From Phocaeicola dorei (GTDB lineage: Bacteria > Bacteroidota > Bacteroidia > Bacteroidales > Bacteroidaceae), in assembly GCF_013009555.1 (NCBI RefSeq), contig NZ_CP046176.1, positions 4,185,501 through 4,249,500 on the forward strand: DNA of 64,000 bases. The letters are read 5' to 3'. The translations under genes were made by a program, and so were the position numbers. Below, piece after piece: positions 43,418 through 63,721 of this stretch. Each line of letters starts with the position of its first letter. The first letter of the stretch is position 1. The notes under the pieces are model-generated. The model ran no database searches, had not been told where the DNA came from, and saw only the letters and a list, made by a program, of their open reading frames with translations.

Positions 43418-45274
43418 ATGATTACTATGAGCAGCTTCAAACATGCAGGGCTAATAATTAGCATAATTACCAGTCTGATATCCTGTACACACAATAAGAA
43501 CTACACCACAACCTTCCAACCCGAATTGGCAAAAGCAGAAGCAATAATGTACAGATATCCCGACAGCGCACTGCATATATTACAGGGCATACAACCTGAC
43601 AATCCTTCTGACAATGAACAATATGCCACATGGGCATTATTGATGACACAAGCTCAATATAAAAACCAAATTGAACAATCCGATTCTTTAATAAATATCG
43701 CTTATTCTTATTTCATTAATCAAGATAATGCACAAAGAAAGGCATTGGCACTATATTATAAAGGTATCTTGTGCCATGAAAGTCATCATGCCGAAGATGC
43801 ATTGTCATTTTATCTAGAAGCAACAACTGAAATAGAGAAAACAAATGATTATCAATTAGGCTTTCTTATCAATTCAGAGATAGGGCTAATGTATCTATAT
43901 CGAAAACTAAATGATTATGCTATGGAATATTTTGAAAAAGCACATCATAATGCCGAATTATCCAACAACCAAACATACATAGCTTTCTCTTTCATCTATA
44001 TCGCTAGAGCATTTTCACAGAAAAAACAATATAATAAAGCGATAGAATATTATGAAAAAGCCATAAAAATAGGACAAGTGAATAACTATCCTACCATATT
44101 GGCAAGCGCCATGAACGAAACCAGTTTTTTATTTCTTAAAACAGGAGATAATAAAAAGGCTCTTCAGTATGCAAAAGATTGTATTAAAATAAAAAAGACT
44201 GATCAAAGAATATTTTCATTGGGAGATACTTATCGCTATTTAAAAATGTACGATTCTGCATATTTTTACCTAAACCAAGCTTGCCTGTCACCTAATATCC
44301 ATACAGCCCGTAGCGCCTATCAAGCACTATATTATATTAGTCAAGAAGAAAAAGATTACAAAAAGGCAGTAGAGTACAGTAATAAACTATGGTTCTATCA
44401 AGATTCAATAGGTAAAACTGATCGCAATAAAGCATTAATAGAGATGCAAGAAAAATATGATCAGCAAAAAATAATTAATGAAAATAATCTGTCACAAATA
44501 AAGAAAGACCGGATCATACGCAATGTGCTCATCGCCTTAATCATTTTGTCTTTCATCATAGCAATAACAAACTATCTATACCAACGAAAAATAGTCTCTC
44601 AAAAACAAGAGATATTGGAGAAAGAAGAAAAAATTCGTTATTTCACTATGAAAATACATGAAAATGAGACATTGATAAACCGCAACAAAATGCGGATAGA
44701 AGAACTTACGATCCAAATGGAAGGAAGCCAAGAGATAAAAGAACAATGGAAAGAACAAAATAAAATACGACAAGAAATACAACAACAGAATGAAATGCTG
44801 AAACTGGAGAACAATAAACTGCAAAATCATATAAGCAATTATGCCCAATCATTAAAAGAAAAGTCGAAAGAACTGGAAGCAATGGAACATCTATCAGAGG
44901 AAAACCAGTATCTACATAAACGCGAGGCTTTTTTATGTAACCAACTCATTAATCAGACAGAATTATTCAATAAACTAAAAACAACAAAGTATATAGACGA
45001 CCAACTATGGCAAGAAATAAAAGAAAAAATAGATTTATTATTCGATAACTATACTAAAAGACTATACCATCAAATACCTTCCTTAACAGATGGTGATATA
45101 CAAATATGCTGTTTGATAAAACTACGATTCAGCAACGGTGACATCGCCAACATGTTAGCCATCTCGCCCACATCTGTGTCCAAAAGGAAGTTAAGATTAA
45201 AAGAACGCATCGTACAAGAAATAGGTTCATTAGGCGAAAATCAAAGCCTTGATTTATGGCTTATGGAATACTAA
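43418..45274 (+). CDS. Membrane-anchored TPR / coiled-coil / HTH regulator, copy 1
   Basis: This 618-aa protein starts with a signal sequence and lipobox-like SLISC. TPR-type repeats fill about 30-340 (CHESHHAEDALSFYLEA, YNKAIEYYEKAIKIG). A transmembrane helix lies at about 368-388 (NVLIALIILSFIIAITNYLY), then a coiled coil (about 390-510). The C-terminal domain (about 556-605) reads LTDGDIQICCLIKLRFSNGDIAN followed by ISPTSVSKRKLRLKER, a LuxR-type helix-turn-helix. I infer outward TPR sensing coupled to cytoplasmic DNA binding. It is paralogous to the gene at 61249; both are followed by a terminator and a DUF3244 gene. ATGs at 43418 and 43427 are both possible. Confidence 0.85.
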   Translation: MITMSSFKHAGLIISIITSLISCTHNKNYTTTFQPELAKAEAIMYRYPDSALHILQGIQPDNPSDNEQYATWALLMTQAQYKNQIEQSDSLINIAYSYFINQDNAQRKALALYYKGILCHESHHAEDALSFYLEATTEIEKTNDYQLGFLINSEIGLMYLYRKLNDYAMEYFEKAHHNAELSNNQTYIAFSFIYIARAFSQKKQYNKAIEYYEKAIKIGQVNNYPTILASAMNETSFLFLKTGDNKKALQYAKDCIKIKKTDQRIFSLGDTYRYLKMYDSAYFYLNQACLSPNIHTARSAYQALYYISQEEKDYKKAVEYSNKLWFYQDSIGKTDRNKALIEMQEKYDQQKIINENNLSQIKKDRIIRNVLIALIILSFIIAITNYLYQRKIVSQKQEILEKEEKIRYFTMKIHENETLINRNKMRIEELTIQMEGSQEIKEQWKEQNKIRQEIQQQNEMLKLENNKLQNHISNYAQSLKEKSKELEAMEHLSEENQYLHKREAFLCNQLINQTELFNKLKTTKYIDDQLWQEIKEKIDLLFDNYTKRLYHQIPSLTDGDIQICCLIKLRFSNGDIANMLAISPTSVSKRKLRLKERIVQEIGSLGENQSLDLWLMEY

Positions 45275-45306
45275 AAATAAACAATTGTCTATATCACCTC
45301 CCTATA

Positions 45307-45347
45307 AAAAAAGGTAATAAGCTAGTTATTAACTTATTACCTTTTTT
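45307..45347 (+). terminator. Terminator after regulator copy 1
   Basis: A perfect 15-bp stem (AAAAAAGGTAATAAG, 45307-45321 with 45333-45347) followed by the right-arm T-run. Confidence 0.92.
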
Positions 45348-45350
45348 CAT

Positions 45351-45398
45351 TTGTCCACATGATATCTGCACGTTTTTAAAATTTATCCTCTAACTTTG
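45351..45398 (+). promoter_or_regulatory. Promoter of DUF3244 gene 1 with shared upstream motif
   Basis: TAACTTTG at 45391-45398 is the -7 element. TTGTCCACAT at 45351-45360, just after the terminator, recurs as TTGTCCATAT before the second DUF3244 gene and is a candidate regulator site. Confidence 0.5.
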
Positions 45399-45428
45399 CC
45401 TCAAACAAAACAATTAAAACATAAAATT

Positions 45429-45833
45429 ATGAAGTTAAAAAGTATAAAGAAAAGGATATGGAGTATAGTTATTATCATAACTACATTAATAGGTATTTTG
45501 CCTGCACAGGCCAATACAACAGAAACTCCTGTTAAAGATGTAGAATTGGATGGCAGATGGGATGATCCTATTAGAAGTGCGACTACCAATTGCCCCATAA
45601 CTGTATTTACCGATGGCTATCTCCTTACTGTCAAGAACGTATCACCCGACCGTGATATGACCATCCGCATTACAGATATGGCAAAAGGGAGCGTCGTTTA
45701 TGAAAATAATATTCCTGAAGTACAGAGCGCTTACATCACAATTTCTATTGCAAATTTCCCTGCAGGAGAATATAAACTAGAAATAACAGGTACACCTTCC
45801 GGACATTTAACGGGATATTTCACTCAAGAGTGA
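45429..45833 (+). CDS. DUF3244 secreted protein, copy 1
   Basis: This 134-aa protein starts at the ATG 45429 (MKLKSIKKRIW) with a signal peptide ending ILPAQA. The mature part is a small Ig-like beta-sandwich of the DUF3244 family: PITVFTDGYLLTVKNVSPDRDMTIRITD, then GSVVYENNIPE and the closing FPAGEYKLEITGTPSGHLTGYF. It has its own promoter downstream of the TPR regulator and is the likely target of that regulator. It is a paralog of the protein at 63308. Function unknown. Confidence 0.85.
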   Translation: MKLKSIKKRIWSIVIIITTLIGILPAQANTTETPVKDVELDGRWDDPIRSATTNCPITVFTDGYLLTVKNVSPDRDMTIRITDMAKGSVVYENNIPEVQSAYITISIANFPAGEYKLEITGTPSGHLTGYFTQE

Positions 45834-45883
45834 CAGACCTGTTTTCATAACCCGACTAAAATATACCTAAACCGCTAACTTGA

Positions 45884-45924
45884 TTCATTAGAAATTGGAA
45901 CTTTCATGTTCCAATTTCTATGAA
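45884..45924 (+). terminator. Hairpin after DUF3244 gene 1
   Basis: AGAAATTGGAAC (45890-45901) and its exact complement (45908-45919) enclose a 6-nt loop; TTCAT/ATGAA extends the stem with one bulge. It lacks a T-run, so it may be a stability or attenuator element rather than a terminator. Confidence 0.6.
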
Positions 45925-45976
45925 TATAATTTGTCCAAAAAGTTCATTAAACAAATCCATATTAGCGCAATAATAT

Positions 45977-46903
45977 ATGCTGAATTTCCTTCTTGACATA
46001 ACACCAGACAAAAGCCAGCTATTGATAACCATCAAATTAGCAGGGATATTGCGGGAAAAGAAACAAGAGGTATACTATACCTATACCTCAAACCCTGCTT
46101 TTACGCCTGTACTATATAATAAAGGAATAAGCAACTGCGTACTTTATCCAGATGATTTCCGTTGGTTAAAGCCCGACCTAACGCTTCTAGATTGTCGGCA
46201 TGCAGCACATGCCTCCCTTTATCGGCAGCTAGCCATTGACTATATTTTCATAGCCATGCAGTTGCCTGACCAAAAAAACATACAGGACAAAGATATTTCT
46301 ATACTTTATCTGCCACCCACTCCCTACCTGTCATCCGATTCCGGACCACGTTTGGAAACATTGACAAAGAGATTGCAGGATATTAAAAAAGACAAAGAAA
46401 GAAATATTATTGTCGGATTATTAGGAAAAGGAAATAAAAATTCAAAGATACTAGAAGATTTTTATAGAGTTATAAAAAGAAGTTCCATCAGAAATCCCCG
46501 GTACCAATTCATATTATTGACCGACATACCAAATGTATATCAATCGTCTGAATTGCCCGACAACATGGAATTATTCCGCACGCTGAACCTTAACACCATA
46601 TTACCATTATGCGATTTGGCTTTGACCGATTCACATTCTGACGCATGGCTGGATTGTACCTTTGCTCAAATACCGGTACTGAAATATTCGCCTAAAGATA
46701 TGATAAACATAACTCCGATGAAATTGGAGCAACAAATAGAATATGCATTACAAAATAAAACAACACTAACACAAAAGGCGAAAGAGTTATGCGATTTCTT
46801 TGAGCGTAAGAATCGGGAAATAAACAAAATAGCCGATATGTTAATAGAAAGAGCAGGACGTAACAGATATAACTCATGCAGACTCCGGCCGCACACTTAT
46901 TAA
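45977..46903 (+). CDS. GT-B-fold glycosyltransferase-like protein
   Basis: This 308-aa cytoplasmic protein lacks a signal peptide. Its N-terminal half looks like a GT1-type acceptor domain (LLITIKLAGILREKKQEVYYTYT, DFRWLKPDLTLLDC). Its C-terminal half looks like the donor domain (IIVGLLGKG, YQFILLTDIP, ILPLCDLALTDSHSDAWLDCTFAQIPVLKYS), where UDP-glucuronosyl/macrolide transferases have a similar ADL..TH....T..E....GVP segment. The conserved H and G-rich loop are degenerate, so activity is uncertain. It lies between the DUF3244 gene and a C39-like gene, same strand. Confidence 0.6.
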   Translation: MLNFLLDITPDKSQLLITIKLAGILREKKQEVYYTYTSNPAFTPVLYNKGISNCVLYPDDFRWLKPDLTLLDCRHAAHASLYRQLAIDYIFIAMQLPDQKNIQDKDISILYLPPTPYLSSDSGPRLETLTKRLQDIKKDKERNIIVGLLGKGNKNSKILEDFYRVIKRSSIRNPRYQFILLTDIPNVYQSSELPDNMELFRTLNLNTILPLCDLALTDSHSDAWLDCTFAQIPVLKYSPKDMINITPMKLEQQIEYALQNKTTLTQKAKELCDFFERKNREINKIADMLIERAGRNRYNSCRLRPHTY

Positions 46904-46999: not shown

Positions 47000-47023
47000 T
47001 TCTCTTATAAAACAAACCGGGTT

Positions 47024-47629: not shown

Positions 47630-49937
47630 TCATAATCTTTCCTTCTCACTCTCTCCGGCACCACTACCCTTATATTTATTACGCGTAGCATTAAATTTAT
47701 AGCGTACCGTCAGCATCACTTTCCTACTATCATAGTTATTAATTTGCAAAGAAGATGCCCGGTTATAATACATACGGTTTCCCGACTTCATGCCATGGAA
47801 CAAATCCGTACCACTCAGTTTCACAGACATCCTATCCCCCCAAAAGAACTTTGTAACCCCGGCATCCACATAAAAAATATTCTTGGTTTCCGAGTAATTC
47901 TCCATATCGCCTTTACTTTGATAATTCATTTCCACCGAAGCTATCCAACCGTGATTAAAATTAAATGTATTATTAAAAGCCCCCGTAAACATCGGTTTGT
48001 TCATCTTCAGCAATCCATCGGTAGTCTCCAGATCCAGCCATTGTTTCTGCACTCCCCAATTCAATTGCGGCGACCAGATTCCAAACTTAGGCGCCAATGA
48101 CAAGAATGCCGAAACAGATTTCAAGCTATGGAGATTTTTGAAAGAAATAAGCGTTACCGCCGGATTATACTCCATTTGTTCCCCCCAGTAAATGATTGCA
48201 TTTCTTCTGTCATTATAATCCACACTGAACTGCATAAACTTCCATGCCCCCATCAAAGAAACGTTATGCACCACCTCATGTTCCAATAACGGATTGCCGG
48301 ACTGAAGCGTGAACCTATTGGCATACGTCACATTATTGCTCAACTGCTGGTAGGACGGACGACGCGTCTTCGCCGCATAACTAAGCTGCAACTGCACTCC
48401 GCCTATTTCAGAACCCAATGAAACACTCGGAAAGAAATTACTGAAATTCCGGCTTTGTCCTTCCATATATTTCCCATCCTCATAATAATTAAAGTTCACC
48501 CACTCATAACGTCCCCCCACGGAAAGTTGCCCTATGGGGGTATTGCGGCTATACTCTAAAAACGGACTGATATTCTGCTCTTTCAGTTCACTGAATGAAG
48601 TCGGCACATAACCTTCCGGATTCACATAATCATCCTGCCGCTCCGTATGACTGTATTCAGCCCCTATCATGACATTTCCTCCAAGCAGCGGACGGCTCAG
48701 CACCAGTTTGGCAGCAAAGAGTTCACTTCTCAATGTATTGGTAGAAGTGACAACCCTATCTTCCTTATTGCTGCTTTCTTCACGTTGTATCGTATTGTCT
48801 CCGTTTTTGTCAAACAGATAATCCGCATTAAAATCAATCTCCGTTTTTCCCGCCATCCCCTTTATAATAAACATTTACCGAATGCGAGGGATTATAATAC
48901 GCAGTGGCATTGATATCATTCGCCAGATAGTCATAATGCGTGCCGTCGGTATATACATCCGAATTAAATATAGTGTGATAGCGGGCATCCGGATTGGCTT
49001 TCAATGTATATTTTACTCCGATTGAATTATTTTCATCGAATGCATAGTTCACACCTGCGATATTGGTAAATGCCTGTTGATTCGTTTTTGCGAACTGATA
49101 ATTGTCCTGATGCCAAAGCGTATCAACATGCACATCTTGAGTAAACCGGCTTTCGTCAAACCCTTCACTTTTTCTATAATACACGGTGCCGAACACATCC
49201 AATTTATCACGCCGGTAATTCCAGTTCAACTGTTCCACGAAACCGGCATACTCCCACTGATTATAACCGGAACGCACATCAAATCCAAATCCTTCCCCTT
49301 TTATGGGGCGGGTAGTAATCTTCACCACTGCTTTCACAGACGCATCATATCTTGCACCGGGGCTGGTAATCAGTTCTACATTCTTAATATCTTCTGACTT
49401 CAGCTGGTCCAGTTCCGACAAATCACGCAGCAATCTTCCATTCACATAGATTATCGGGCTCCCTTTTCCAAATACCTCATACGCATCATTTTTCTTCTGA
49501 AGTCCCGGTATATGCTTCAACACATCCTCCGCCGTACCCATTATGCTAAGCACTGTTCCTTGCACATGGGTCTGCAACCCTTCGGAAGTAAGTTTATATG
49601 ACGGGCGATTCCCCTTTACCACGACTTCCCCCAACAGATTAACATCTTCATGCATCACAATCGTTACCGGAAATTGAGCATAGGCTTTTGTCACCGGAAT
49701 AAAGCCAAGACAAGAAATTCTGAGTATATTGTTACCGCTTGTTTGGTCTATGCTGAAAATTCCTTGTTCATTGCTAATTGTACCTTGCACAAAAGATGAA
49801 TCTTTGGAAGATAGCAATACCACATTAGCAAAACTGACAGGATTTCCTTTTTCATCAACTAATAAGCCGGAAACACTCTGTGCGTCAATAACAATAGAAT
49901 TTAATAATAATCCGAGCAATAAAATCAGTGTCCTCAT
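47630..49937 (-). pseudogene. Outer-membrane beta-barrel receptor-like gene with a frameshift
   Basis: Two adjacent frames together encode one protein of about 768 aa, matching its paralogs (769 and 771 aa). The N-terminal frame (49937-48834) has a signal peptide (IDAQS), a carboxypeptidase-D-like domain (VSGLLVDEKGNPVSFANVVL), a plug-like region (VFGKGSPIIYVNGRLLRDLSELDQL) and the first strands. The C-terminal frame (48874-47630) finishes the barrel (RYKFNATRNKYKG). The frames join at a CCCC tract (48857-48860): removing one base gives YYKG followed by MAGKTEIDFN, which aligns with YYNGTVGDLNIDF in the paralog. It may be a true pseudogene, a phase-variable tract or a sequencing error. Confidence 0.8.
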
Positions 49938-52509: not shown

Positions 52510-52701
52510 TCATTCTGATATGTTTGCCATATTCTTTGAGATAGTCCCAGCCACAAAAGAGGAATCTTTAGAAGATAACAATACCACATTAGCAAAACTG
52601 ACAGGATTTCCTTTTTCATCAACTAATGAGCCGGAAACACTCTGTGCATTAACAATAATCACTTGTAACACTAATCCGAGTAGTAAAATCACTTTCCTCA
52701 T
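52510..52701 (-). pseudogene. 5' remnant of a barrel gene
   Basis: These 63 codons encode a signal peptide (VIIVNAQSVSG) and the first half of a carboxypeptidase-D-like domain (SLVDEKGNPVSFANVVLLSS), then stop. Bases 52553-52647 match 49789-49883 in the frameshifted barrel gene at 91 of 95 positions. It is therefore a truncated copy of that gene's beginning, left by duplication or recombination. Confidence 0.85.
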
Positions 52702-52730: not shown

Positions 52731-55040
52731 TCACAAACGTCTTAGCTCATCATTTGCCGCTCCTGTCCCTTTATACTTGCTCTTTGTTGTATTAAACTTA
52801 TAGCGCAAAGTAATAGAAAATTCACGAGTATCCCATTGATTAGTCTGCTCCCAAATAATACTGCCAAAATATGTTTGCCAATAATTACGTGAACCATGAA
52901 AAAGATCGTTCCCTCGAAGTTCCAGACTTAAGGCATCCCTTAAAAATGACTTACGGACAGAGATGTCAACTGTACCATAATTTTTGAACTGATACAAATT
53001 CTGATAATTTCCTTTTCCCATAAAAAGCCCATCCAAACTGACAAGAAAATCACCAGGAAGTTCAAATGTATTGTTGAACCTTATTGTAGGACGAGGTTTA
53101 TTAAACTCTATGCCATCTATTGTCATCCATTGTTTCTTCACGCCGATATTTAGGTTAGGATGCCAAAAGCCAATAGCCGGTGAAATAGAGAAAGAAACAT
53201 TCAAAGTCGGACGATTATGATAATTGAGGTAAGTCATCATCATTGAATTGCCATTATCTATCGGATCTCCCCAATAAATGATTTCCTTACGCCACTGCTG
53301 ATAGCTGACAAGTAACTGTAAAAAACGCCATGTACCGACCAATGAAATATCGTGAATGGTGCACGGCTCCAGCAATGGGTTACCACGTTGCATAGTGAAA
53401 CGGTCTACATAGGTGACATTGTTGCTTAACTGGCTATAAGTAGGTCGTTGCGTTTTAGCAGTATAACTCAACTGTGCCCGGACAGAACCTAGTTTTCTTG
53501 AAAAAGAAAGATTAGGAAACCAGTTTCCATACATACGGCTCTGTTCATCCATGTGCACACCATCCTTATAATAATCAAAAGTTACATGCTCATATCTTAC
53601 ACCCAATGAAAGGTTACCTATCGGGAACTGACGGCTGTATTCGGCAAAGCCACTCAATCCATCTTCCTCTACACGACTGATGGTACTTTCCACATATTTC
53701 TCCGGATTACGGTACTCGTCATTGCGACGGGTATCCGTATATTCTCCGCCTACCGAAAGATTACCTCCAAACAACGGATAAGAAAGTACCAATTTAGAAG
53801 CTAGCAATTTATTTCTGATGTAACTCTGTGTATGCACATCCCGACTTTCTTGCTCTTGACTGACTTCGTGATAAAGACCTTTTCCTGTAGAAGTATTAGT
53901 ATAATAGTCTGTATTAAAATCAATATTCAAATCTCCCACAGTACCATTATAATAAACATTTAGTTGATGAGTAGGCTTACCGGAAGTAGAAGAATACTCT
54001 TGATTTTCCAAGTGGTCATAAAACTGATTGTTGGCTGTAATATCATTAGAGGTAAATACATCCGACTTCGTATTTGGACGGGAAGTAAGAGTATAGCGGA
54101 ATCCCAGTGAATGTTTATCATTCAGGCTATAATTAGCTCCTATTTCACCTCGTAAAGACTTGTCTACTACAGTTCCATCCAATAGATTCTGATATTTCCA
54201 TAAAGAATCAGACTCCAAGGTATGTACAATATCATTTTTCATGATATATTCGTTCTTTAAATAACGGAATATACCAAAAATATCAAGTCCATTATGGCGG
54301 TAGTTTACATTCAATTGCTCTATCAAGTCTACATTCTGGCTCTGATAGTAACTGGAACGGAGATCGAAGCCGAAACCATCTCCGGCACGCCGGATAGTCT
54401 GTATACGGATAACGGCAGTTACAGTTGCATCATAACGTGCACCGGGATTAGTAACAACTTCTACGCTCTTAATATCTTCCGAATTTAGTTGATCCAATTC
54501 CGAATCATCACGTACCTGCCGCCCATTGATATAAATAAGAGGTGTTCCTTTGCCAAGTACTTCATAGGAATTCCTCTCTTTTATTACACCCGGTACTTTT
54601 CCCAATACATCGCTTGCTGATCCGGCTTTAGAGAGTACACTATTTTGTATATTAGTCACCAGTGCGTCGCCTCTCATGCGAGTAACAGGCATATCAGCTT
54701 TTACCACAACTTCAGCCAATATCTGTGTGTCTGAAGCGAGACAGATAATTCCAAGATCTGTACTTCTGTTATCTAATGGACGATAAACAGTAGCATAGCC
54801 AATAGATGAGATGCGAAGCACATCCTTTGTTTCTTTGACATTGAGACTAAACGCGCCTTCTTCATTACTGATACTTCCTGCCACGAAAGTAGAATCGGGC
54901 AAAGAAAGTAACACTATATTGGCATAAGGGACAGGTTGTTGTTGCTCATCAATTACTTTACCTGTTACCGTAACCTGTGCTTGCAGCTGCACTGCCACCC
55001 CCATAAAGAAGTATAAACAAAAAAGTATATTCGCTCTCAT
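52731..55040 (-). CDS. Outer-membrane beta-barrel receptor-like protein
   Basis: This 769-aa protein has a signal peptide ending VQLQAQ. The carboxypeptidase-D-like domain (VTGKVIDEQQQPVPYANIVLLSLPD) is followed by a plug-like segment (VVVKADMPVTRMRGDALVTNIQNSVLSKAGSASDVLGKVPGV, GKGTPLIYINGRQVRDDSELDQLNSEDIKSVEVVTNPGARYDATV) and a barrel of the outer-membrane beta-barrel family 3 type. The last 24 residues (ending SKYKGTGAANDELRRL) are identical to those of the barrel at 55565 except for one position, so the two are recent paralogs with diverged extracellular parts. Ligand unknown. Confidence 0.9.
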   Translation of the reverse strand: MRANILFCLYFFMGVAVQLQAQVTVTGKVIDEQQQPVPYANIVLLSLPDSTFVAGSISNEEGAFSLNVKETKDVLRISSIGYATVYRPLDNRSTDLGIICLASDTQILAEVVVKADMPVTRMRGDALVTNIQNSVLSKAGSASDVLGKVPGVIKERNSYEVLGKGTPLIYINGRQVRDDSELDQLNSEDIKSVEVVTNPGARYDATVTAVIRIQTIRRAGDGFGFDLRSSYYQSQNVDLIEQLNVNYRHNGLDIFGIFRYLKNEYIMKNDIVHTLESDSLWKYQNLLDGTVVDKSLRGEIGANYSLNDKHSLGFRYTLTSRPNTKSDVFTSNDITANNQFYDHLENQEYSSTSGKPTHQLNVYYNGTVGDLNIDFNTDYYTNTSTGKGLYHEVSQEQESRDVHTQSYIRNKLLASKLVLSYPLFGGNLSVGGEYTDTRRNDEYRNPEKYVESTISRVEEDGLSGFAEYSRQFPIGNLSLGVRYEHVTFDYYKDGVHMDEQSRMYGNWFPNLSFSRKLGSVRAQLSYTAKTQRPTYSQLSNNVTYVDRFTMQRGNPLLEPCTIHDISLVGTWRFLQLLVSYQQWRKEIIYWGDPIDNGNSMMMTYLNYHNRPTLNVSFSISPAIGFWHPNLNIGVKKQWMTIDGIEFNKPRPTIRFNNTFELPGDFLVSLDGLFMGKGNYQNLYQFKNYGTVDISVRKSFLRDALSLELRGNDLFHGSRNYWQTYFGSIIWEQTNQWDTREFSITLRYKFNTTKSKYKGTGAANDELRRL

Positions 55041-55075: not shown

Positions 55076-55330
55076 TTACAAAGCTATAGAATAATCAACG
55101 GCACATTCTATCGGTTTATTATAGAAGCTATTACCTTGATCATAATTCCTTAGACGACAAGTCATCAGTGAACACTTTTTGTTTAATGTACAAGTAGAAC
55201 AAGTATCTATATTTTCCAAACTAAATCCTCCTCGGAACATTCTCCATTTATCTCTATTTTCCCAAAGTTCTTTCAAATTTTCTTTTGTAAGATCTCCTAC
55301 AAGCAATTCTTCATGTCCAAAGCATAAGAG
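55076..55330 (-). pseudogene. Orphan C-terminal piece of a SPASM domain
   Basis: The frame from 55330 reads LLCFGHEELLVGDLTKENLKELW and then CSTCTLNKKCSLMTCRLRNYDQG, the end of a radical SAM SPASM domain with its auxiliary-cluster cysteines. There is no radical SAM core attached and no proper start. The gene at 60246-61049 is a radical SAM enzyme lacking exactly this end, so the two may be parts of one broken ancestor. Confidence 0.65.
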
Positions 55331-55564: not shown

Positions 55565-57880
55565 CTACAAGCGCCTCAACTCATCATTGGCCGCCCCTGT
55601 ACCTTTATACTTGCTCTTTGTTGTATTAAACCTATAGCGCAATGAAATAGAGAACTCGCGCGAGTCATATCTATGATCTTTTGAGAAGGAATATGCTCCA
55701 CTGCGAAGAAGCGTTTTACTTTTTTGCTGGCGGAACAAATCATCTCCCCTTACCTCTATACTCAAAGCATCATTCAAGAATGATTTTCGCAGTGAAATAT
55801 CAACATAGCTATTAAAACGATCAAAATATACATTGCGCAAATCCCCCTTACTCCTGAATTGCATATCCAAACTAAGAAGGAAATTTTCTGGCAATGTAAA
55901 TGAATTAGACAGCACACCCGTAAATCTGGGTTCATTCAATTTTAATTGTTGCCCATCACTATCAATAGTCAGCCATTGTTTAGTTATTCCAAGACTTAAA
56001 CGGGATTCCCATATACCAATATGAGGCGAAGCCGAAATAAAGGCATTCAGCATAGGCAGACTTTTATTCAAATTAATACTTTTCAGTAAAATGGTATATT
56101 CATTCGGATTCAATGGCTCACCCCAATAGATTATAGCATTTTTAGTCTGCTGATAACCTAAGCTGAGTTGCAGAAACTTCCAAGAAGCAATCCAGTTAAG
56201 ATTATGAGTGATTTCGGACTTCAATGTAGGATTTCCCTGCTGTATGCTGAAACGGTCTATATATAATGAACTATTGCTCAACAGCCTGTATGAAGGACGT
56301 TGCGTCTTTACCGTATAACTAATTTGCGTCTTAACCTTTCCAATCCGAGTATTGAAGGAAACATTCGGATAGATATTATCATAGCTACGGCTCTGGTCAT
56401 CTATATGCAGATCATCTTTATAATAATCAAATTTTATTTGCTCATAGCGTGCACCAAGTATAAAGTCGCCTATGGAAATAGATCTGCTATATTCGGCAAA
56501 AGCCGTTATATTCATTTCATTCATCTTGCTGTTGGATGAAGGCACATAATTTTCAACATTCAGATAATTGTCTTTGCGATGGGTATAAGTCCATTCTCCG
56601 CCTACTGAAAATTTTCCTTTCCACACAGGATAGGACAACACCAGTTTGGCTGCTGCCAAATTATTTGCCACATCACTTGCAGCATGTACATCCCGGTCCT
56701 CCTGCTCTTCACTTTCCTCGCCAGTAATGTCCTCCTGTAAATAACCGCTTTGATAGTAGTCGGCATTGAAGTCTATTTCCAGATTACCCACGCGCCCCGT
56801 ATAGTAAGCATTCAACTGATGATTTAATTCATTATCTGTTTCTGAGCTTGTAAAATTCTGTAAACGATCAAATACCTTACCGTCTAAACTGACTTTACTA
56901 GTTGTATAAAGCTTACTATCATATCTGGGGCTTCCCTGAATAGAGTATTTTATTCCGATAGAATTATTTTCATCAAACATATAGTTCATTCCGATATTTC
57001 CTCGCAGCCATTGCTTATTATCATTATATTTCAATTGATTTTCCAAGTCCAGCTGTTTCTTTGAAATTAAAGTCTGATGTACATTGGTGCGTTCACGAAA
57101 TTCCATCTTATCATATCTGAACATGGCAAACATATCCAGCCCATTATGGCGATAGTTCACATCTGCCTGTTCCACTAAGTCTACATTTTCACTTTGATAA
57201 TAACTGGAATTTAGATTGAATCCGAATCCATCGCCAGTGCGGCGGATAGTCTGAATGCGCACCACAGCATTTACAGTGGCATCATAGCGCGCACCGGGAT
57301 TAGTTATCAATTCTACATGCTTAATATCTTCCGAACTGAGTTGCTCCAGCTCAGACTTGTCGCGTACTTCCCTGCCATTGATATAGATAAGAGGCGTTCC
57401 TTTGCCGAATACTTCAAAGGAATCTTTATCCTTCAATATACCGGGCACTTTTCCCAGTACATCGTTTGCCGATCCTGCCTTTGCTAATACGCTGTTCTGC
57501 ACACTTGTTACCAATGCATCGCCTTTCATGCGAGTTACAGGCAAATTGCCTTTCACTACTACTTCACCCAGCAGTTGTGTATCCGAGTGCAACAAGATAG
57601 TGCCTATATTCCTGTCCTTACATTCCTTATATGTTGTAGCATAACCTACAGATGAAATGCGTAATATCCCTTTAGATGAATTTTCGGGTATGGTAAATTT
57701 TCCATCCTGGTCACTGATAGTTCCATATATAAAAGTAGAATCAGGCAATGATAAACATACGATATTAGCAAATTCTATCGGCTGATTACTTTCATCAACA
57801 ATTTTTCCAGCTACTGTCTGTGAATATATAGAAGTAGTAGAAACTACCCAAATCAACATAATATAAAGTAACTTTTCCAT
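55565..57880 (-). CDS. Outer-membrane beta-barrel receptor-like protein, in operon with radical SAM enzyme
   Basis: This 771-aa protein has a signal peptide (TTSIYSQT) and a carboxypeptidase-D-like domain (VAGKIVDESNQPIEFANIVCLSLPD). The plug-like region is close to that of the barrel at 52731 (LPVTRMKGDALVTSVQNSVLAKAGSANDVLGKVPGI, GKGTPLIYINGREVRDKSELEQL). The barrel ends in the same SKYKGTGAANDELRRL tail. It starts 11 bp after the radical SAM/SPASM gene, so the two are almost certainly co-transcribed, which makes this barrel the likely transporter or receptor for that enzyme's product. Confidence 0.9.
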   Translation of the reverse strand: MEKLLYIMLIWVVSTTSIYSQTVAGKIVDESNQPIEFANIVCLSLPDSTFIYGTISDQDGKFTIPENSSKGILRISSVGYATTYKECKDRNIGTILLHSDTQLLGEVVVKGNLPVTRMKGDALVTSVQNSVLAKAGSANDVLGKVPGILKDKDSFEVFGKGTPLIYINGREVRDKSELEQLSSEDIKHVELITNPGARYDATVNAVVRIQTIRRTGDGFGFNLNSSYYQSENVDLVEQADVNYRHNGLDMFAMFRYDKMEFRERTNVHQTLISKKQLDLENQLKYNDNKQWLRGNIGMNYMFDENNSIGIKYSIQGSPRYDSKLYTTSKVSLDGKVFDRLQNFTSSETDNELNHQLNAYYTGRVGNLEIDFNADYYQSGYLQEDITGEESEEQEDRDVHAASDVANNLAAAKLVLSYPVWKGKFSVGGEWTYTHRKDNYLNVENYVPSSNSKMNEMNITAFAEYSRSISIGDFILGARYEQIKFDYYKDDLHIDDQSRSYDNIYPNVSFNTRIGKVKTQISYTVKTQRPSYRLLSNSSLYIDRFSIQQGNPTLKSEITHNLNWIASWKFLQLSLGYQQTKNAIIYWGEPLNPNEYTILLKSINLNKSLPMLNAFISASPHIGIWESRLSLGITKQWLTIDSDGQQLKLNEPRFTGVLSNSFTLPENFLLSLDMQFRSKGDLRNVYFDRFNSYVDISLRKSFLNDALSIEVRGDDLFRQQKSKTLLRSGAYSFSKDHRYDSREFSISLRYRFNTTKSKYKGTGAANDELRRL

Positions 57881-57891: not shown

Positions 57892-59001
57892 TTAATTATT
57901 CATTTTCTGAATGAGTAAAGACCATAATTGAGGGTCCTTGCGGATAGATGCAATTATTAATAATATTTGTTCTATACAAAGAAGCGTTATTTTACAAAAG
58001 TCTTCATTAGGGTATGCTTCAAATTGATTTATTTTATGATTGAAAAATCTATGTACAGTACATCCTCCACATAATCTTTGTGCCCAACATTTTTCACACT
58101 TTTCATTTGATCTAAAATCTATTTCATGATCAAATGGTTTATATAATTCTGGATAATTATAAACATTATAGCCATCAATACTACCTAACTTACATTCTTT
58201 AATACCATTTATTGTATGACATGCGTATATAGTTCCATCAGTGCTTACAGCTAAATACTGATCTATAACAGGGCATATATTAGTAGATGTATTATGAACA
58301 ATAGCATGTAGAAGTAACCAAAAATCTTTAGGCAAATATTTCAGTTCTGTTCTTTTTAAATATTCCAAATCAATGGAGTTCCATAAATCAAGCAATAATT
58401 GCAGACTAAGTTCTTGATCATTGACCACTACACCTTCAATTCCAAAAGTCTGATCCATAAATTTTGAAATATCTTCATGACTATAATTATGATCAATATG
58501 TAACTGCGTATAGGTTGCTTCGTACTGTATTTTTACATTGGTTTTTTCTTGTATAGTATGGATAAAATGAGCTATCCTTTCATAACTTCCTTTTCCATTT
58601 TTATATATTCTCTGAATATCATTAATTTCTTTAGGACCATCTATACTGATAGTCATTGCTGAAATATTTCTCTTGATAAATGCCAGCATCCTATCTGTTA
58701 ATATTGTCCCATTAGTAATAATTACGAAATTAGGCAAAATATCTATTTTCCCTTCTTCTTTATAATATTTAAAGCGATTGCACACTATCTCCATTCCTTT
58801 AAGATTAAGCATCGGTTCGCCTCCAAAAAAGACAATCTTTTCAACTCTTTCAAATTGTTCTACACAAAAATCTACAAACTCTATTGCTGTTTGCTCTGTC
58901 ATTAGGTTACGTTCTTGATTATAACTTCCACCTCCACCAAAACAATACTTACATCTTAAATTACAATCATTAGATATATGTAAAGTGATTCGCCTTATCA
59001 C
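57892..59001 (-). CDS. Radical SAM/SPASM peptide-maturase-like enzyme
   Basis: The radical SAM motif is CNLRCKYCFGGGGSYNQERN (CxxxCxxC) and is followed by FFGGEPMLNLKG and ITNGTILTDRML. A C-terminal SPASM domain holds CPVIDQYLAVSTDGTIYACHT, then the CEKCWAQRLCGGCTVH cluster and a final Cys (EDFCKITLLC). CxxxCxxCFGGGGSYG-type motifs are seen in enzymes that crosslink ribosomal peptides. I use a GTG at 59001, giving 369 aa; it overlaps the TGA of a 35-codon ORF (GTGA). The frame is open to a TTG at 59130 (412 aa), which is the alternative. It heads an operon with the barrel gene at 55565. Confidence 0.88.
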   Translation of the reverse strand: MIRRITLHISNDCNLRCKYCFGGGGSYNQERNLMTEQTAIEFVDFCVEQFERVEKIVFFGGEPMLNLKGMEIVCNRFKYYKEEGKIDILPNFVIITNGTILTDRMLAFIKRNISAMTISIDGPKEINDIQRIYKNGKGSYERIAHFIHTIQEKTNVKIQYEATYTQLHIDHNYSHEDISKFMDQTFGIEGVVVNDQELSLQLLLDLWNSIDLEYLKRTELKYLPKDFWLLLHAIVHNTSTNICPVIDQYLAVSTDGTIYACHTINGIKECKLGSIDGYNVYNYPELYKPFDHEIDFRSNEKCEKCWAQRLCGGCTVHRFFNHKINQFEAYPNEDFCKITLLCIEQILLIIASIRKDPQLWSLLIQKMNN

Positions 59002-59105
59002 TTTTCTTTTATTTCCATTTTGAATATTTGTGCTATGCTCGCCTTTATTTGAAGCATATATAGATCTAATACTACTTCCTGCTTTTTTAATTCGTCGTCT
59101 TTCAT
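58998..59105 (-). CDS. 35-codon ORF upstream of the radical SAM gene
   Basis: The ATG at 59105 starts MKDDELKKQEVVLDLYMLQ and the frame ends in KMEIKEK with TGA at 59000-58998, overlapping the proposed GTG start of the radical SAM gene. It starts about 60 bp after the -7 element. The product is charged and helical with no Cys or GG leader, so it is not a typical radical SAM substrate. It could be a leader peptide, a diverged precursor, or chance. Confidence 0.3.
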   Translation of the reverse strand: MKDDELKKQEVVLDLYMLQIKASIAQIFKMEIKEK

Positions 59106-59164
59106 GATCGTTAAATTTTAAAATTAACAAACTAGTAAACTATTGTGATTTCTTAATTACATTG

Positions 59165-59339: not shown

Positions 59340-59762
59340 TTAGTTATTGATAACCGGCAATAATTTTAGGCCCTTTCTCTCATTCTTTTTACGCTTGGCA
59401 TCTGCCTTACGGTTATTGATAACCAATTGATAAGATTCAGCCACAGCATTCAGTTCATCGGCAAAGGCAATAAACAGTTCATTATCATAATAAAAGAACA
59501 TATCATTTACCAATGAATATAGCTGATTCAATAATCCATTACAGTTCTTATGCAGACTAGTAGCCGAAAGACCTTTCTGTTCTTTCACAATACCACGCTG
59601 TGTATCTAAGTCCAAATAAAGATTATTTGCCTTTTCCACTTCAGTGATGCGATCAGCCAGATTCAGTCGTTCTACTGAATCATGGTTTTTCTCTGATTGC
59701 AGAATCAAAATGTAACCTGCAATACGGGCAGACATATCGGAACGGGTAATTATCTTATTCAT
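59340..59762 (-). CDS. DUF6261-like protein, C-terminal part
   Basis: This 140-aa helical protein (ADRITEVEKANNLYLDLDTQRG, LLNQLYSLVNDMFFYYDNELFIAFADELNAVAESY) ends in a basic tail and KLLPVINN. The helical pattern resembles the C-terminal half of DUF6261-family proteins, which are usually about 240 aa. The preceding ORF looks like the N-terminal half, so the gene may be split. An ATG at 59762 is available, so separate translation is also possible. Function unknown. Confidence 0.55.
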   Translation of the reverse strand: MNKIITRSDMSARIAGYILILQSEKNHDSVERLNLADRITEVEKANNLYLDLDTQRGIVKEQKGLSATSLHKNCNGLLNQLYSLVNDMFFYYDNELFIAFADELNAVAESYQLVINNRKADAKRKKNERKGLKLLPVINN

Positions 59763-59781
59763 TTTATAATTTCCAGTCTGA

Positions 59782-60165
59782 TCAATAAGGCTTTTTGCAG
59801 CATCTTGATCTTCTTTTGTTCCTATATCTCTTGCTCTTGATGTTCATCTGTAATGCGCTGAAACATTTGCGACGAATATCATGGGCTTCGGACAGACCGA
59901 CTGTTTCAGAATAAAGATGGCTTTTATTTAACTTTTGACCATATTCAGCTAATATAGCCTGTAATGCCAAATGCTTGTTGGTTAAATCCACTTTATCGTT
60001 TGCTGATTCAGGTATCTTTCCAGATCCGTCTTTTACAACTACATCCGACGAACCTTTCAATAGCTTTGCATATTTATCATATACACCTAACCAACGTGAC
60101 ATAAAATCATAGTTTTCTGACAAATTCAGAAAATTAATAGAAACTAATGCTCTTGCTTCAATCAT
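59782..60165 (-). CDS. DUF6261-like protein, N-terminal part
   Basis: This 127-aa ORF begins MIEARALVSINFLNLSENYDF and is helical to about residue 110. It then degenerates into a basic run (SKRYRNKRRSRCCKKPY), which suggests that the frame has been lost. In the shifted frame the end reads EHQEQEI, a stop, then EQKKIKMLQKALLIRLEIIK, which looks more protein-like. It lies about 80 bp after the truncated radical SAM gene. Confidence 0.5.
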   Translation of the reverse strand: MIEARALVSINFLNLSENYDFMSRWLGVYDKYAKLLKGSSDVVVKDGSGKIPESANDKVDLTNKHLALQAILAEYGQKLNKSHLYSETVGLSEAHDIRRKCFSALQMNIKSKRYRNKRRSRCCKKPY

Positions 60166-61049: not shown

Positions 61050-61074
61050 AATACAGCCGTTTTTATACATAAAA

Positions 61075-61101
61075 TAGTAAGGAGGGCATGCCTCCTTACT
61101 A
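61075..61101 (-). terminator. Hairpin just upstream of the truncated radical SAM gene
   Basis: A perfect 11-bp stem TAGTAAGGAGG with a 5-nt loop, followed on the minus strand by TTTTATG. It could be an attenuator or the terminator of a short transcript starting near 61200. Confidence 0.6.
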
Positions 61102-61215
61102 AATTGAATATTTAAGATCCATAATACTTCTATCAACACTGGATGCAAACTATAATCAATCACTCTTTTTTTGTAAATAGTGATATAAAATCTTTTCAAG
61201 ATCGTTTTTAATTTC

Positions 61216-61223: not shown

Positions 61224-61248
61224 TTCGCTATACATAAATGCAAATACT

Positions 61249-63144
61249 ATGAAAAAAACAATTGGAATAAAAAGAAACTTTATTATTATAATAATAAGTA
61301 TACTCCTTTCTGCCTGCACAAAAAAAGAAAATGCTTCTCAACAAGCGTTGTTGCTTGAATTGGTTCAAGCGGAAGCGGTGATGTATGAACATCCGGATAG
61401 TGCACTGGGTGTATTGCAAGGGATGAAAGTTCCGGCATCATCGGACAAATTGCAAAATGCTACTTGGGCGTTGCTAACAGTGCAAGCCAAGTATAAGAAT
61501 TATAAAGAAGAACTTGCTGACTCTACCTTAATTAATATAGCCTATGATTACTTTATGAAGCAAGACAATCCCCAACGGAAAGCAATGGTACTTTATTATA
61601 AAGGTGTATTATATGAAAAAGCTGATAAAAAGAATGAAGCACAAGAATCCTATTTAAAAGCAATAGAAGAAGTAGAAAAGACGAAAGACTATCAACTGGC
61701 ACATTTGATTTATAGCAGTATAGGAAATATATACCTATATAATTCGCTGAATGAATATGCATTGCAAATGTTTAAACAGTCATTGCACTATGCGAAGCTA
61801 TCCGAAAATAAGAATTATATATGTTCTGCATATTATGATTTGGGAAAAGTATATTCCGTATTATTTGATTTTGATAATAGCATCAAATATTATAAAGAAG
61901 CTATACAAATGGCAGAAACTCTACATAATAATGGTATATTAATAAATGGAATGAACGAATTAGCAGGAGTATATACCGAAACAAAAGATTATCAACCTGC
62001 CCTATCCTATGCCCAAAAAGCTTTAATACTTAAAGAAACAAGCGAATTACCCCTAAAAAAAAGGCTAGAACAAAGTTACTTGGTAATTGGTGACATATAT
62101 AGACGCATTAATAAAACAGATTCTGCCTATTATTATCTGAATAAAACATTATCCTCCAATCGCATGGAAACGATTTGTGCAACTTATGAAATTTTATATA
62201 ATCTAAGCAAAGAGAAAAAAGACTATGAAAAAATGAGCCTATATTGCGATAGTATGGTAGTTTATCAAGATTCTGTCTGGAAATTGCATAAAAATAAAGA
62301 GCTTATGAATATGCAGGAAAAGTATAACCAGCAAAAACTATTGAATGAAAAGAACCAGCTAAAAATAGAAAATAATACTATCATCCGTAATGTACTAATC
62401 ATATTGGTAGTGGTATTCTGCCTGATAGCTATCCTTATCTATATATACCAGCGAAAATTAATCCGTAAAGAGCATATCATACAAAGACATGAAGAAGAAA
62501 TACAGCTGAATACCTTAAAAAGACAAGAGAATGAGAGAATAATCAGTCGTAACCAAAGCCGCATGAAGGAACTGGCAGAACAAATGGAGGCGAATAAAGA
62601 TGCGCAGGAACAGTTGGAGGAGCAAAAGAATGTACTATCTGAAATAAAATGCCAAAATGAAGCCCTGCAACAAGAGAATAAAATGTTGCAGCAACATATT
62701 GATAAATATTCTTCTTCGCTGAATGAAAAGTCCAAAGAACTTGAAAGATTGGGACTTTTAGGAGAAGAAAACCAACGATTGCATGATCGTGAAAGATTCC
62801 TGTGCAACCAACTGATAAAAAAGACAGATGTCCTTTACCGGCTAAAGACAAAGCCCCAATACATGAAAGACGAGCAATGGGAAGAGGTAAAGGAAACAAT
62901 GAATCTATTATTCGATAATTATATAGTAAGGCTTTCCACTCTTGTACCTTCATTGACAGAAAGCGATTTGCAGATATGCTGCTTCATCAAGTTGGGAATA
63001 GCCAATCCGGGAATAGCTGATTTGCTGGGGATAGAATCGACTTCGGTATCTAAAAGAAAATTAAGATTGAAAGAACGTATCACTCAAAAGATAGGAGCAT
63101 TCGGCAAAGGACAGACACTGGATCTGTGGCTATGGGAGTTCTAG
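61249..63144 (+). CDS. Membrane-anchored TPR / coiled-coil / HTH regulator, copy 2
   Basis: This 631-aa protein has the same plan as the gene at 43418. It has a basic start, signal segment and lipobox LSAC, then TPR repeats (about 35-345: KNEAQESYLKAIEEVEK, FDNSIKYYKEAIQMAETL). A transmembrane helix (about 381-401, NVLIILVVVFCLIAILIYIYQ) precedes a long coiled coil and a C-terminal helix-turn-helix (about 568-618, LTESDLQICCFIKLGIANPGIADLLGIESTSVSKRKLRLKER). The end of the protein (KLRLKER...LDLWL) is nearly identical to copy 1, so both may bind similar DNA. It is divergent from the truncated radical SAM gene and upstream of the second DUF3244 gene. Confidence 0.87.
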   Translation: MKKTIGIKRNFIIIIISILLSACTKKENASQQALLLELVQAEAVMYEHPDSALGVLQGMKVPASSDKLQNATWALLTVQAKYKNYKEELADSTLINIAYDYFMKQDNPQRKAMVLYYKGVLYEKADKKNEAQESYLKAIEEVEKTKDYQLAHLIYSSIGNIYLYNSLNEYALQMFKQSLHYAKLSENKNYICSAYYDLGKVYSVLFDFDNSIKYYKEAIQMAETLHNNGILINGMNELAGVYTETKDYQPALSYAQKALILKETSELPLKKRLEQSYLVIGDIYRRINKTDSAYYYLNKTLSSNRMETICATYEILYNLSKEKKDYEKMSLYCDSMVVYQDSVWKLHKNKELMNMQEKYNQQKLLNEKNQLKIENNTIIRNVLIILVVVFCLIAILIYIYQRKLIRKEHIIQRHEEEIQLNTLKRQENERIISRNQSRMKELAEQMEANKDAQEQLEEQKNVLSEIKCQNEALQQENKMLQQHIDKYSSSLNEKSKELERLGLLGEENQRLHDRERFLCNQLIKKTDVLYRLKTKPQYMKDEQWEEVKETMNLLFDNYIVRLSTLVPSLTESDLQICCFIKLGIANPGIADLLGIESTSVSKRKLRLKERITQKIGAFGKGQTLDLWLWEF

Positions 63145-63175
63145 GGAAGCAACTGTCCACATTCCGCATTCGCAC

Positions 63176-63214
63176 AAAGAGGTAATATTCTAATTATTAG
63201 CATATTATCTCTTT
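63176..63214 (+). terminator. Terminator after regulator copy 2
   Basis: AAAGAGGTAATAT (63176-63188) pairs with ATATTATCTCTTT (63202-63214) with one G-U pair, followed by T. It corresponds to the terminator at 45307 in module 1. Confidence 0.8.
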
Positions 63215-63219
63215 TTTAA

Positions 63220-63278
63220 TTGTCCATATAACGTACATATCCGGTCTATCTGTTTTTCATTCTAAATCCATAACTTTG
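63220..63278 (+). promoter_or_regulatory. Promoter of DUF3244 gene 2 with shared upstream motif
   Basis: TAACTTTG at 63271-63278 is the -7 element, identical to module 1. TTGTCCATAT at 63220-63229 matches TTGTCCACAT of module 1 at 9 of 10 positions; its distance to the -7 box is 11 bp longer, about one helical turn. Confidence 0.5.
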
Positions 63279-63307
63279 CAGCATAACAATCAATCAATAA
63301 TATTATT

Positions 63308-63721
63308 ATGAAAACAACTAAAGAATTAAAGATTTGGAGTTTGCGTATGGTATTATTCACCATATTGCTTAGTGGTTTATCGGTGCAGAAAGTGTATTCT
63401 TTTTGTAATAGTACAGAAATTATTATAAATGGGAAGTGGTATAGCAATCAAGAAAAAGTTAATACACGAAGCCTGCCATCTATTCCCATCACAGCCTGCA
63501 CCGATGGCCAGAACATCTACATTGAAAACACATCTCCGGACTGTGACATACAAATTACCATCACCGGTAATCAAACAGGAGAAGTGATGTATGAACAGTT
63601 AGTGCCCCAAGCACAAACAAGCTATATTATCATTTCCATAGCCAGTTTCCCATCCGGAGAATATACATTAGAACTAACTAGTGAAGATGGGAAATACTTG
63701 GTTGGAGCTTTTAAAAGATAA
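63308..63721 (+). CDS. DUF3244 secreted protein, copy 2
   Basis: This 137-aa protein has a signal peptide (MVLFTILLSGLSVQKVYS) and a DUF3244 Ig-like domain: PITACTDGQNIYIENTSPDCDIQITITG, GEVMYEQLVPQAQTSYIIIS and FPSGEYTLELTSEDGKYLVGAF. It shares the order of motifs with the protein at 45429 (TDG...N.SPD.D..I.I, then FP.GEY.LE.T...G.YL.G.F). It follows regulator copy 2 with its own promoter. Function unknown; a secreted or periplasmic effector or ligand of the TPR sensor is possible. Confidence 0.85.
   Translation: MKTTKELKIWSLRMVLFTILLSGLSVQKVYSFCNSTEIIINGKWYSNQEKVNTRSLPSIPITACTDGQNIYIENTSPDCDIQITITGNQTGEVMYEQLVPQAQTSYIIISIASFPSGEYTLELTSEDGKYLVGAFKR

Follow-up and report, generated by a model that had tools for sequence, protein, structure and literature searches.

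Gene clusters related to the one described here are known from the Bacteroidaceae. In Phocaeicola vulgatus, a cluster for a ribosomally synthesized and post-translationally modified peptide (RiPP), 'BGC2', includes a tetratricopeptide repeat (TPR) gene, and the accessible text of that report comments that TPR domains elsewhere can regulate expression (Fernandez-Cantos et al. 2023, PMC10352776). In Bacteroides thetaiotaomicron, BT_3442-BT_3433 form a TPR-DUF3244-MACPF cluster (PMC2954219). Bti and Bfi, small secreted beta proteins encoded beside cysteine-peptidase genes, have been put forward as staphostatin-like inhibitors of the C10 proteases of Bacteroides (PMC3462683, PMC2873492). Here we analyze a 64,000-nucleotide stretch of Phocaeicola dorei (assembly GCF_013009555.1, contig NZ_CP046176.1, positions 4,185,501 to 4,249,500; hereafter the window), in which two predicted regulators of one kind (REG1 and REG2; collectively REG) each precede a gene for a secreted DUF3244 protein (DUF3244-1 and DUF3244-2). 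Our reading, to which we assign a probability of roughly 0.7, is that REG is a transmembrane one-component regulator that controls the operon led by DUF3244 through tandem 11-bp repeats. Gene anatomy, adjacency, the repeats, their register, their association with the helix-turn-helix (HTH) domain of REG, and the RiPP context were computed directly; binding, activation, the signal, the role of DUF3244, and the topology of REG are what we infer from them.

BGC2 is very likely a fuller form of the RiPP locus of the window. As the accessible text describes it, it comes from P. vulgatus and has radical SAM only, a C39-type exporter with a membrane fusion protein, a distant outer-membrane gene, and the TPR gene. 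It differs in that the TPR gene is called possibly regulatory, whereas an HTH, a transmembrane segment, DUF3244, and an operator are not mentioned there. The accessible part of the B. thetaiotaomicron report also has a TPR protein followed by a DUF3244-type protein (BVU_0276 homologue, PDB 3d33) at the head of a secreted-protein cluster, but the cargo is MACPF and trefoil-like proteins and the cluster is interpreted as a possible transport system. Two NCBIfam families are named after that cluster, and the window proteins fall far under both cut-offs: REG copies score 95.8 and 129.3 bits against BT3442_fam (NF053779; cut-off 940 bits), and for BT3441_fam (NF053775; cut-off 210 bits) DUF3244-2 reaches 22.1 bits and DUF3244-1 has no match at E<=0.1. 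For Bti and Bfi, the portions of the two papers at hand describe no regulator or operator, and the cargo here is a RiPP pathway. The preliminary description of the window, made from the letters alone, had held that no system of this composition was described. Related clusters evidently are, and what stands of the claim is narrower, in that the accessible text of PMC10352776 and PMC2954219 assigns the pair neither a regulatory role nor an operator. In the literature searched, part of it available only as excerpts, no paper was found that names REG-DUF3244 as a regulator or describes the repeats, and the available main text of a B. thetaiotaomicron transcriptome atlas (PMC10994844) has no mention of DUF3244, BT_2221, or BT_3441.

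The two modules have the same order of regulator, terminator-like hairpin, -7 box TAACTTTG, and DUF3244, as the preliminary description had said and as sequence and Pfam bear out (table 1). The hairpins, perfect in copy 1 and near-perfect in copy 2, are both followed by a T-run, and two of the three occurrences of TAACTTTG on the + strand of the window are the DUF3244 promoters (45391 and 63271). An Rfam scan of 43000-64000 gave zero matches.

REG1 and REG2 are 47-48% identical overall. Each has an N-terminal lipobox (LISC in REG1, LSAC in REG2; Cys 23 in both), TPRs that exceed the Pfam cut-off, and a single hydrophobic segment (residues about 363-389 and about 373-405, respectively). The AlphaFold model of REG2 (mean predicted local distance difference test score 85) shows the TPRs as a superhelix, together with a long helix and a C-terminal domain that is also helical, and its nearest solved structures include the TPR protein LGN and peptide-binding Rap proteins. 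Both copies have TPRs and a hydrophobic segment, and the REG2 model adds a helical C-terminal domain; REG is a predicted membrane one-component regulator, in which a lipobox-bearing N-terminus and periplasmic TPR sensor would be joined by one transmembrane helix and a cytoplasmic coiled coil to a C-terminal HTH. Membrane-integrated one-component regulators of the ToxR/CadC type likewise hold a periplasmic sensor, a transmembrane helix, and a cytoplasmic DNA-binding domain in one protein. Compared with these, the predicted order in REG is reversed, with the sensor N-terminal and the HTH C-terminal, and the TPRs, lipobox, coiled coil, and 11-bp repeat site are additional differences. The two copies had been said to end in the same HTH sequence. 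This is fair for the recognition region, where SVSKRKLRLKERI is shared exactly, and too strong overall because only 46 of the final 75 residues are identical.

REG and DUF3244 occur together far beyond the window. PF11589 (DUF3244) was searched in 151 genomes of the family, 58 of which have a match, and REG was counted as adjacent when upstream, on the same strand, and within 600 bp. A first set of chosen matches has REG beside 53 of its 62 DUF3244 genes; in a second set, whose loci were taken from a longer list in Bacteroides genomes outside the first draw, the count is 80 of 84. This survey across many genomes had been proposed as a check by the preliminary description, and the pairing holds up. 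For other families within the order, 10 loci were picked out of 28, short open frames only, and 8 show REG next to a recognized DUF3244; the two exceptions are a locus that ends at a contig end (L195) and one without a recognized DUF3244 open reading frame (ORF; L203).

The intergenic regions of these pairs contain tandem 11-bp direct repeats, which are new here. Near-identical regions were collapsed (68 to 60 in the first set, 74 to 55 in the second), and those of the second set are dissimilar to one another and filtered against the first. The mean score for period 11 is 5.22 in the 60 non-redundant regions, versus 2.06 in 292 controls (other intergenic regions of the same loci) and 2.23 in shuffles (Mann-Whitney p 1.4e-8 at width 16; 3e-9 to 2e-7 over four widths). 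The next highest value is 2.98 versus 2.01 at period 10, with periods 9, 10, and 12 reaching 2.7-3.0. The excess recurs in the second set, 3.87 versus 1.85 (p 5.5e-4; 55 regions, 102 controls), and the remaining 18 of 19 periods have p>0.05. Head-to-tail 11-bp repeats at a promoter are also the layout of the pho box; PhoB, which binds it, differs in being the response regulator of a two-component system and in having a winged helix.

The repeats also keep a near-constant distance from the promoter. In the group of loci whose precursor peptide has the core CGLGC, the best offset from the -7 box is -49 in 12 of 12 loci, with GTCYATATNNN at -49, -38, and -27. Other lineages have CCGCACAAAAA, GCGTACTNNNN, and GTGAANNNNNN, among others, mostly similarly placed. 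A register model from the first set, applied to the second, has its maximum at zero shift (0.1 vs. <= -2.04 at 22 other shifts) and there differs from control promoters (p 0.009). A site model was built from the 12 CGLGC-group loci, excluding the window and its near-twin in P. vulgatus ATCC 8482 (L101). Among 127,936 positions scored in the window, the site before DUF3244-2 is the sole one above 16.5. P. vulgatus copy 1 scores 5.1, close to copy 1 of the window (table 1), and no site is found in the window before the minus-strand block or before REG itself.

Sequences of the repeats vary with the HTH of the adjoining REG. Across 27 loci (4 of 31, with short REG, were dropped), repeats are more alike where HTH identity is higher (Mantel r 0.57, p<=5e-4), and the partial correlation given TPR is 0.21 (p 0.005). 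A stronger test paired each of 15 loci of the second set with the closest HTH among 21 loci of the first; the repeats of the latter predict those of the former better than permuted pairs do (mean similarity 0.59 vs. 0.47 for all; permutation p 2e-4). The best predictions are for L299 (1.00), L294 (0.91), L283 (0.75), and L229 (0.73), and misses include L278, L265, L304, and L298. REG likely binds the repeats; its HTH would contact them a nearly constant distance ahead of the -7 box, and each REG lineage would recognize its own repeat sequence. Because an 11-bp site near a fixed promoter distance recurs, replicates, and tracks the HTH, direct control of DUF3244 by REG, as the preliminary description had proposed, is the best reading of these patterns. 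REG is most likely the protein that binds there and controls the operon headed by DUF3244, and activation would be likelier than repression.

Several points weigh against this reading. The repeats were noticed by eye, in some first-set regions, before any test was made, and the 12 of 12 register was read off with a GT-core score made by hand for offsets 44-55. Strong repeats are in a minority, 11 being the best period in only 20 of 60 regions of the first set and 11 of 55 of the second, where period 22, expected of longer arrays, is not elevated. Ten intergenic regions outside Bacteroidaceae have no excess at period 11 (3.07; period 12 reaches 4.49). The HTH itself has no Pfam match above cut-off; the best is HTH_Crp_2, in REG1 only (E 0.01, 16.2 of 27 bits), and by Pfam cut-off REG does not enter the LuxR/GerE type, to which it may bear a likeness. 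A TTG near -33 is found in 36 of 81 DUF3244 promoters and 31 of 96 controls; with no clear difference, this element was rejected as a sign of activation and does not decide between activation and repression. Repeat similarity correlates almost equally with TPR (r 0.56) and DUF3244 (0.54), thus much of the link between repeats and HTH reflects common descent, and partial correlations given HTH persist for TPR (0.18, p 0.01) and DUF3244 (0.31, p 5e-4). Finally, the distances between DUF3244 proteins follow those of every part of REG to a similar degree (correlations of 0.52-0.66 over its length). A coevolution specific to the TPRs, hinted at by a partial Mantel between TPR and DUF3244 given HTH of 0.57, was dropped because equal-length sliding windows over 62 pairs are flat.

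Two further observations concern the repeats. One locus outside Bacteroidaceae (L193) has two look-alike repeat units at -50. In several CGLGC loci, a lone GTCCA-like unit often lies just past the REG stop codon and upstream of the hairpin, possibly a distal half-site.

In the window, REG2 most likely controls the DUF3244-2 operon and, with it, a RiPP pathway. Copy 2 would be the working unit, its operon running into the DNA just right of the window (L045). There, DUF3244-2 is followed by a small HTH-like protein, a 304-aa protein with no Pfam match, a 733-aa C39 peptidase/ABC exporter, an HlyD-like protein, a 67-aa precursor that has a double-glycine (GG) leader and the core CGLGC, a radical SAM protein of 527 aa, and a C39-like protein of 193 aa. 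Precursor, maturase, and C39 exporter, by which a radical-SAM RiPP locus was defined, are all present. The operon is of RiPP type by gene content. Copy 1 (43418-47611), in which a pattern search found no GG-leader peptide and which has neither exporter nor maturase, has an incomplete RiPP set. Among the best 80 of 131 radical SAM loci in the genome contigs, 19 have a GG...CGLGC peptide; 16 of these 19 contain DUF3244 and 15 contain REG, versus DUF3244 in 9 of the 61 others. In each of the three CGLGC loci without DUF3244 (L112, L113, and L150), the contig begins 3.7 to 7.0 kb ahead of the peptide. Against TIGR04149 (cut-off 25 bits), the CGLGC precursor of L048 and the second precursor of L046 have no match, and that of L065 reaches 22.8 bits.

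The pair is common and precedes varied secreted cargo besides RiPP operons. Cargo across loci includes C39 peptidases, GG-leader peptides, LanC-like proteins, C10 (C10-like genes in 12 of 144 loci examined), C25, and C13 peptidases, and proteins of the MACPF and thiol-cytolysin-like kinds. Many more cargo proteins are unassigned or are secreted or surface proteins of other sorts. The Pfam scan of cargo covered 85 proteins, at most 2 per locus, and the best 25 of 51 families, excluding proteins labelled by our own profiles, above 900 aa, below 110 aa, or at locus edges. Whole-genome co-occurrence was tested for C39 in 28 of the 58 DUF3244-positive genomes (67 of 75 matches, 8 weak or partial rows excluded). 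A C39 peptidase lies within 10 kb of 22 of the 67 DUF3244 matches, versus 1.0 expected under uniform placement, and 27 of 59 C39 matches are near a DUF3244 gene. Radical SAM was counted in the same genomes by PF13186 only (69 matches). A third module of the P. dorei genome (L041, G000:C1:5563301-5583300) has a REG-DUF3244 pair and, behind it, three mutually related proteins, of which one matches the thiol-activated cytolysin family in Pfam.

DUF3244 would most likely be a secreted partner in the circuit, acting perhaps in feedback on the sensor or in protection against the cargo. Both window copies exceed the Pfam cut-off (25 bits), and the model of DUF3244-2 matches solved structures 3d33, 3sd2, and 4g5a, pointing to a small secreted beta-sandwich of Ig-like fold. 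Because DUF3244 is the first gene behind the site regardless of cargo, we favor a feedback role with the TPR sensor, tentatively and at somewhat less than even odds. Of the competing explanations, the one that survives best, though we consider it rather unlikely, is that DUF3244 is a secreted inhibitor of the operon's cysteine peptidase (C10, C25, C13, or C39) and REG merely the pathway's regulator; the pair would then stay together because peptidase operons need an inhibitor. The small beta-sandwich and the peptidases among the cargo are consistent with this, and so is BT2221 (btiZ), listed as a DUF3244 protein in the accessible part of PMC10434189 and, in that of PMC3462683, proposed to be a staphostatin-like inhibitor co-transcribed with the C10 gene btpZ. 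Many DUF3244 operons, however, lack any sought peptidase family, and BtpZ has no catalytic Cys (PMC3462683, accessible text). In the available portions of PMC3462683 and PMC2873492, the inhibitor role rests on size, predicted fold, and low identity, and no assay was found in them.

DUF3244 may also touch on type IX secretion. The DUF3244-2 model resembles a C-terminal domain of that system (8gl6_D, TM 0.76 by target, rank 46, E 0.038), and the protein has a weak Por_Secre_tail match in Pfam. Among the listed PF11589 matches outside Bacteroidaceae, many are within long open frames and are possibly sorting domains of type IX secretion.

It is improbable that another regulator, such as the operon's small HTH-like protein, binds the repeats while REG acts elsewhere. 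That protein is present in 14 of 19 CGLGC loci, mostly directly after DUF3244, but strong repeats also occur where the listed cargo has no member of its cluster (L054, L055, L060, L066, and L067), and REG is the sole regulator common to the set and the one whose HTH predicts the repeats. Less probable still is that repeats and pairing reflect shared descent of entire loci, with REG and promoter functionally unlinked, as the comparable tracking of operator similarity by TPR and DUF3244 identity might suggest. Near-identical regions had been collapsed, control regions from the same loci lack the period, and the period recurs, mostly similarly placed, with differing repeats (GTCYATA, CCGCACA, GCGTACT, and GTGAA), a pattern that descent alone would not preserve.

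Direct control by REG thus preferred, the history of the two copies in the window can be considered. In the REG tree, REG1 is sister to the REG of P. faecalis (L048) with full support, and at 63% identity is orthologue-like, while REG2, of unsettled placement, is outside that pair. The copies are old because REG1 groups with the P. faecalis REG and REG2 does not. In P. faecalis the same chromosomal slot, flanked as in the window by a cytidylate kinase-like gene and a 684-689 aa gene, is occupied by a single locus that includes exporter, precursor, and radical SAM. P. vulgatus ATCC 8482 has both copies, with REG1 at 96% and a REG2 homologue in two frames. These comparisons indicate two old units side by side, each strain having lost parts. 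Copy 1 would be an older orthologous unit, its operon now without exporter, precursor, and maturase and its site decayed. The shared order and strand of the modules had suggested a fresh tandem duplication bracketing an inserted barrel/radical SAM block, which is very improbable given the diverged copies, the REG tree, the single P. faecalis locus in the same slot, and the presence of both copies in P. vulgatus.

Possible remnants of REG loci were also observed. The two-frame REG2 homologue of P. vulgatus ATCC 8482 (L101 2755-4651) is accompanied by an operator and downstream genes that look whole. Elsewhere in the P. dorei genome, G000:C1:5607211-5609424 (L004, L006, and L042) has a REG-like stretch with an in-frame TAG, another REG-like fragment, and, in L042, a short DUF3244-like ORF; together these resemble a module in decay.

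Between the modules, the barrels and radical SAM genes of the minus strand are probably a degrading second arm of the RiPP locus. They had been counted as four barrels and two radical SAM genes. Three barrels are single ORFs, but one is split and both radical SAM genes are incomplete. In the barrel protein at 49985-52315, a carboxypeptidase-regulatory-like N-terminal domain is the only one matched, and PF14905 is absent at E<=0.01. The window and P. vulgatus ATCC 8482 (L101) align in three stretches >150 bp that are 96.5, 98.9, and 99.5% identical. The radical SAM gene at 57892-59130 is without its N-terminus owing to a gap of 451 bp relative to P. vulgatus, where the missing stretch contains the start of this gene and the greater part of a GG-leader precursor with GVGCVC at its end. 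The second radical SAM gene (60246-61199) stops short of the C-terminal part found in its 500-527 aa relatives. Control of this block by the regulator had also been suggested as a possibility. Such control through the 11-bp site was rejected, as the window's one strong site is the DUF3244-2 promoter and the site model finds none before the minus-strand block.

Table 1. Features of the two modules, the intervening block, and the adjoining operon (window positions unless prefixed with L045).
Feature	Position	Strand	Basis
REG1, lipobox-TPR-transmembrane-coiled-coil-HTH regulator (predicted), 618 aa	43418..45274	+	Pfam and sequence
Hairpin, perfect, with T-run, terminator-like, REG1/DUF3244-1 gap	45313..45341	+	sequence
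Putative operator position, copy 1, decayed (-49 to -17 from -7 box); GTCCACAT at -38 alone recognizable	45342..45374	+	score 5.3
-7 box TAACTTTG of DUF3244-1	45391..45398	+	sequence
DUF3244-1, secreted Ig-like protein, 134 aa	45429..45833	+	PF11589, 103.7 bits (scanned from 45396)
GTx, 308-aa protein, no Pfam match above cut-off, relatives in RiPP loci of this type	45977..46903	+	
Stand-alone C39-like peptidase domain protein, 195 aa	47024..47611	+	PF03412, 46.6 bits
Outer-membrane barrel gene, two frames (47630-48874, 48834-49937)	47630..49937	-	sequence and Pfam
Outer-membrane barrel protein, 776 aa	49985..52315	-	barrel by relationship to neighboring barrels
Barrel N-terminal fragment	52510..52701	-	match below cut-off; sequence
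Outer-membrane barrel protein	52731..55040	-	PF14905
SPASM fragment, radical SAM protein tail	55076..55306	-	20.9 of 21.5 bits; 22.9 bits in genome search
Outer-membrane barrel protein	55565..57880	-	PF14905
Radical SAM/SPASM maturase, without N-terminus and adjoining precursor relative to P. vulgatus	57892..59130	-	Pfam, comparison
Two ORFs; first (59340-59762) DUF6261 just over cut-off, second no Pfam match	59340..60165	-	
Radical SAM protein, second type, truncated, 317 aa	60246..61199	-	Pfam, comparison
REG2, predicted regulator, 631 aa, single open frame	61249..63144	+	Pfam, sequence, model
Hairpin, near-perfect, with T-run, REG2/DUF3244-2 gap	63178..63212	+	sequence
Putative operator, copy 2: 11-bp direct repeats GTCCATATAAC GTACATATCCG GTCTATCTGTT at -49/-38/-27 from -7 box	63222..63254	+	score 23.9
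-7 box TAACTTTG of DUF3244-2	63271..63278	+	sequence
DUF3244-2, secreted Ig-like protein, 137 aa, opens RiPP operon leaving window	63308..63721	+	PF11589, 100.4 bits
Small HTH-like protein, 79 aa	63756..63995	+	AcpB/EbpR/MafR match weak, below cut-off
C39 ABC exporter	L045:2439-4640		
GG-leader precursor, core CGLGC	L045:5884-6087		
Radical SAM, full-length	L045:5993-7576		

RiPP loci elsewhere show variations on this theme. In six CGLGC loci (L104, L106, L108, L110, L118, and L138), the CGLGC peptide is joined by a second peptide that is Cys-rich and has a GG leader, near which lie a radical SAM gene and a barrel; this suggests a two-peptide product. In Ancylomarina (L120), three nearly identical GG-leader precursors are in tandem upstream of a radical SAM gene. 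REG-DUF3244 pairs in L050, L051, and L079 precede clusters that share radical SAM and seemingly LanC-like and glycosyltransferase genes, of the GG-Bacteroidales kind. A record labelled Lachnospiraceae, a metagenome-assembled genome (L103), carries a Bacteroides-type locus, by binning error or transfer.

Taken at its broadest, REG-DUF3244 may be a portable cassette with which Bacteroidaceae control secreted competition factors, a possibility we regard as doubtful. The TPRs would read a periplasmic envelope or peptide cue, the HTH would activate through lineage-private repeats, DUF3244 would be the exported feedback partner, and RiPP, cysteine peptidase, and pore-former-like cargo would be interchangeable. 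Calling the cargo competition factors is an interpretation and not a tallied count. In the literature searched, how gut Bacteroidaceae control production of RiPPs, MACPF proteins, and C10 proteases is largely unanswered. DUF3244, which has solved structures and no tested role in the literature found, gains two concrete and opposing hypotheses. The layout of periplasmic TPR, transmembrane helix, coiled coil, and HTH, with partly predictable lineage-specific sites, would add to the known arrangements of sensors. With a predicted regulator, its DNA site, and a partner protein, the question of control would become directly testable across many species.

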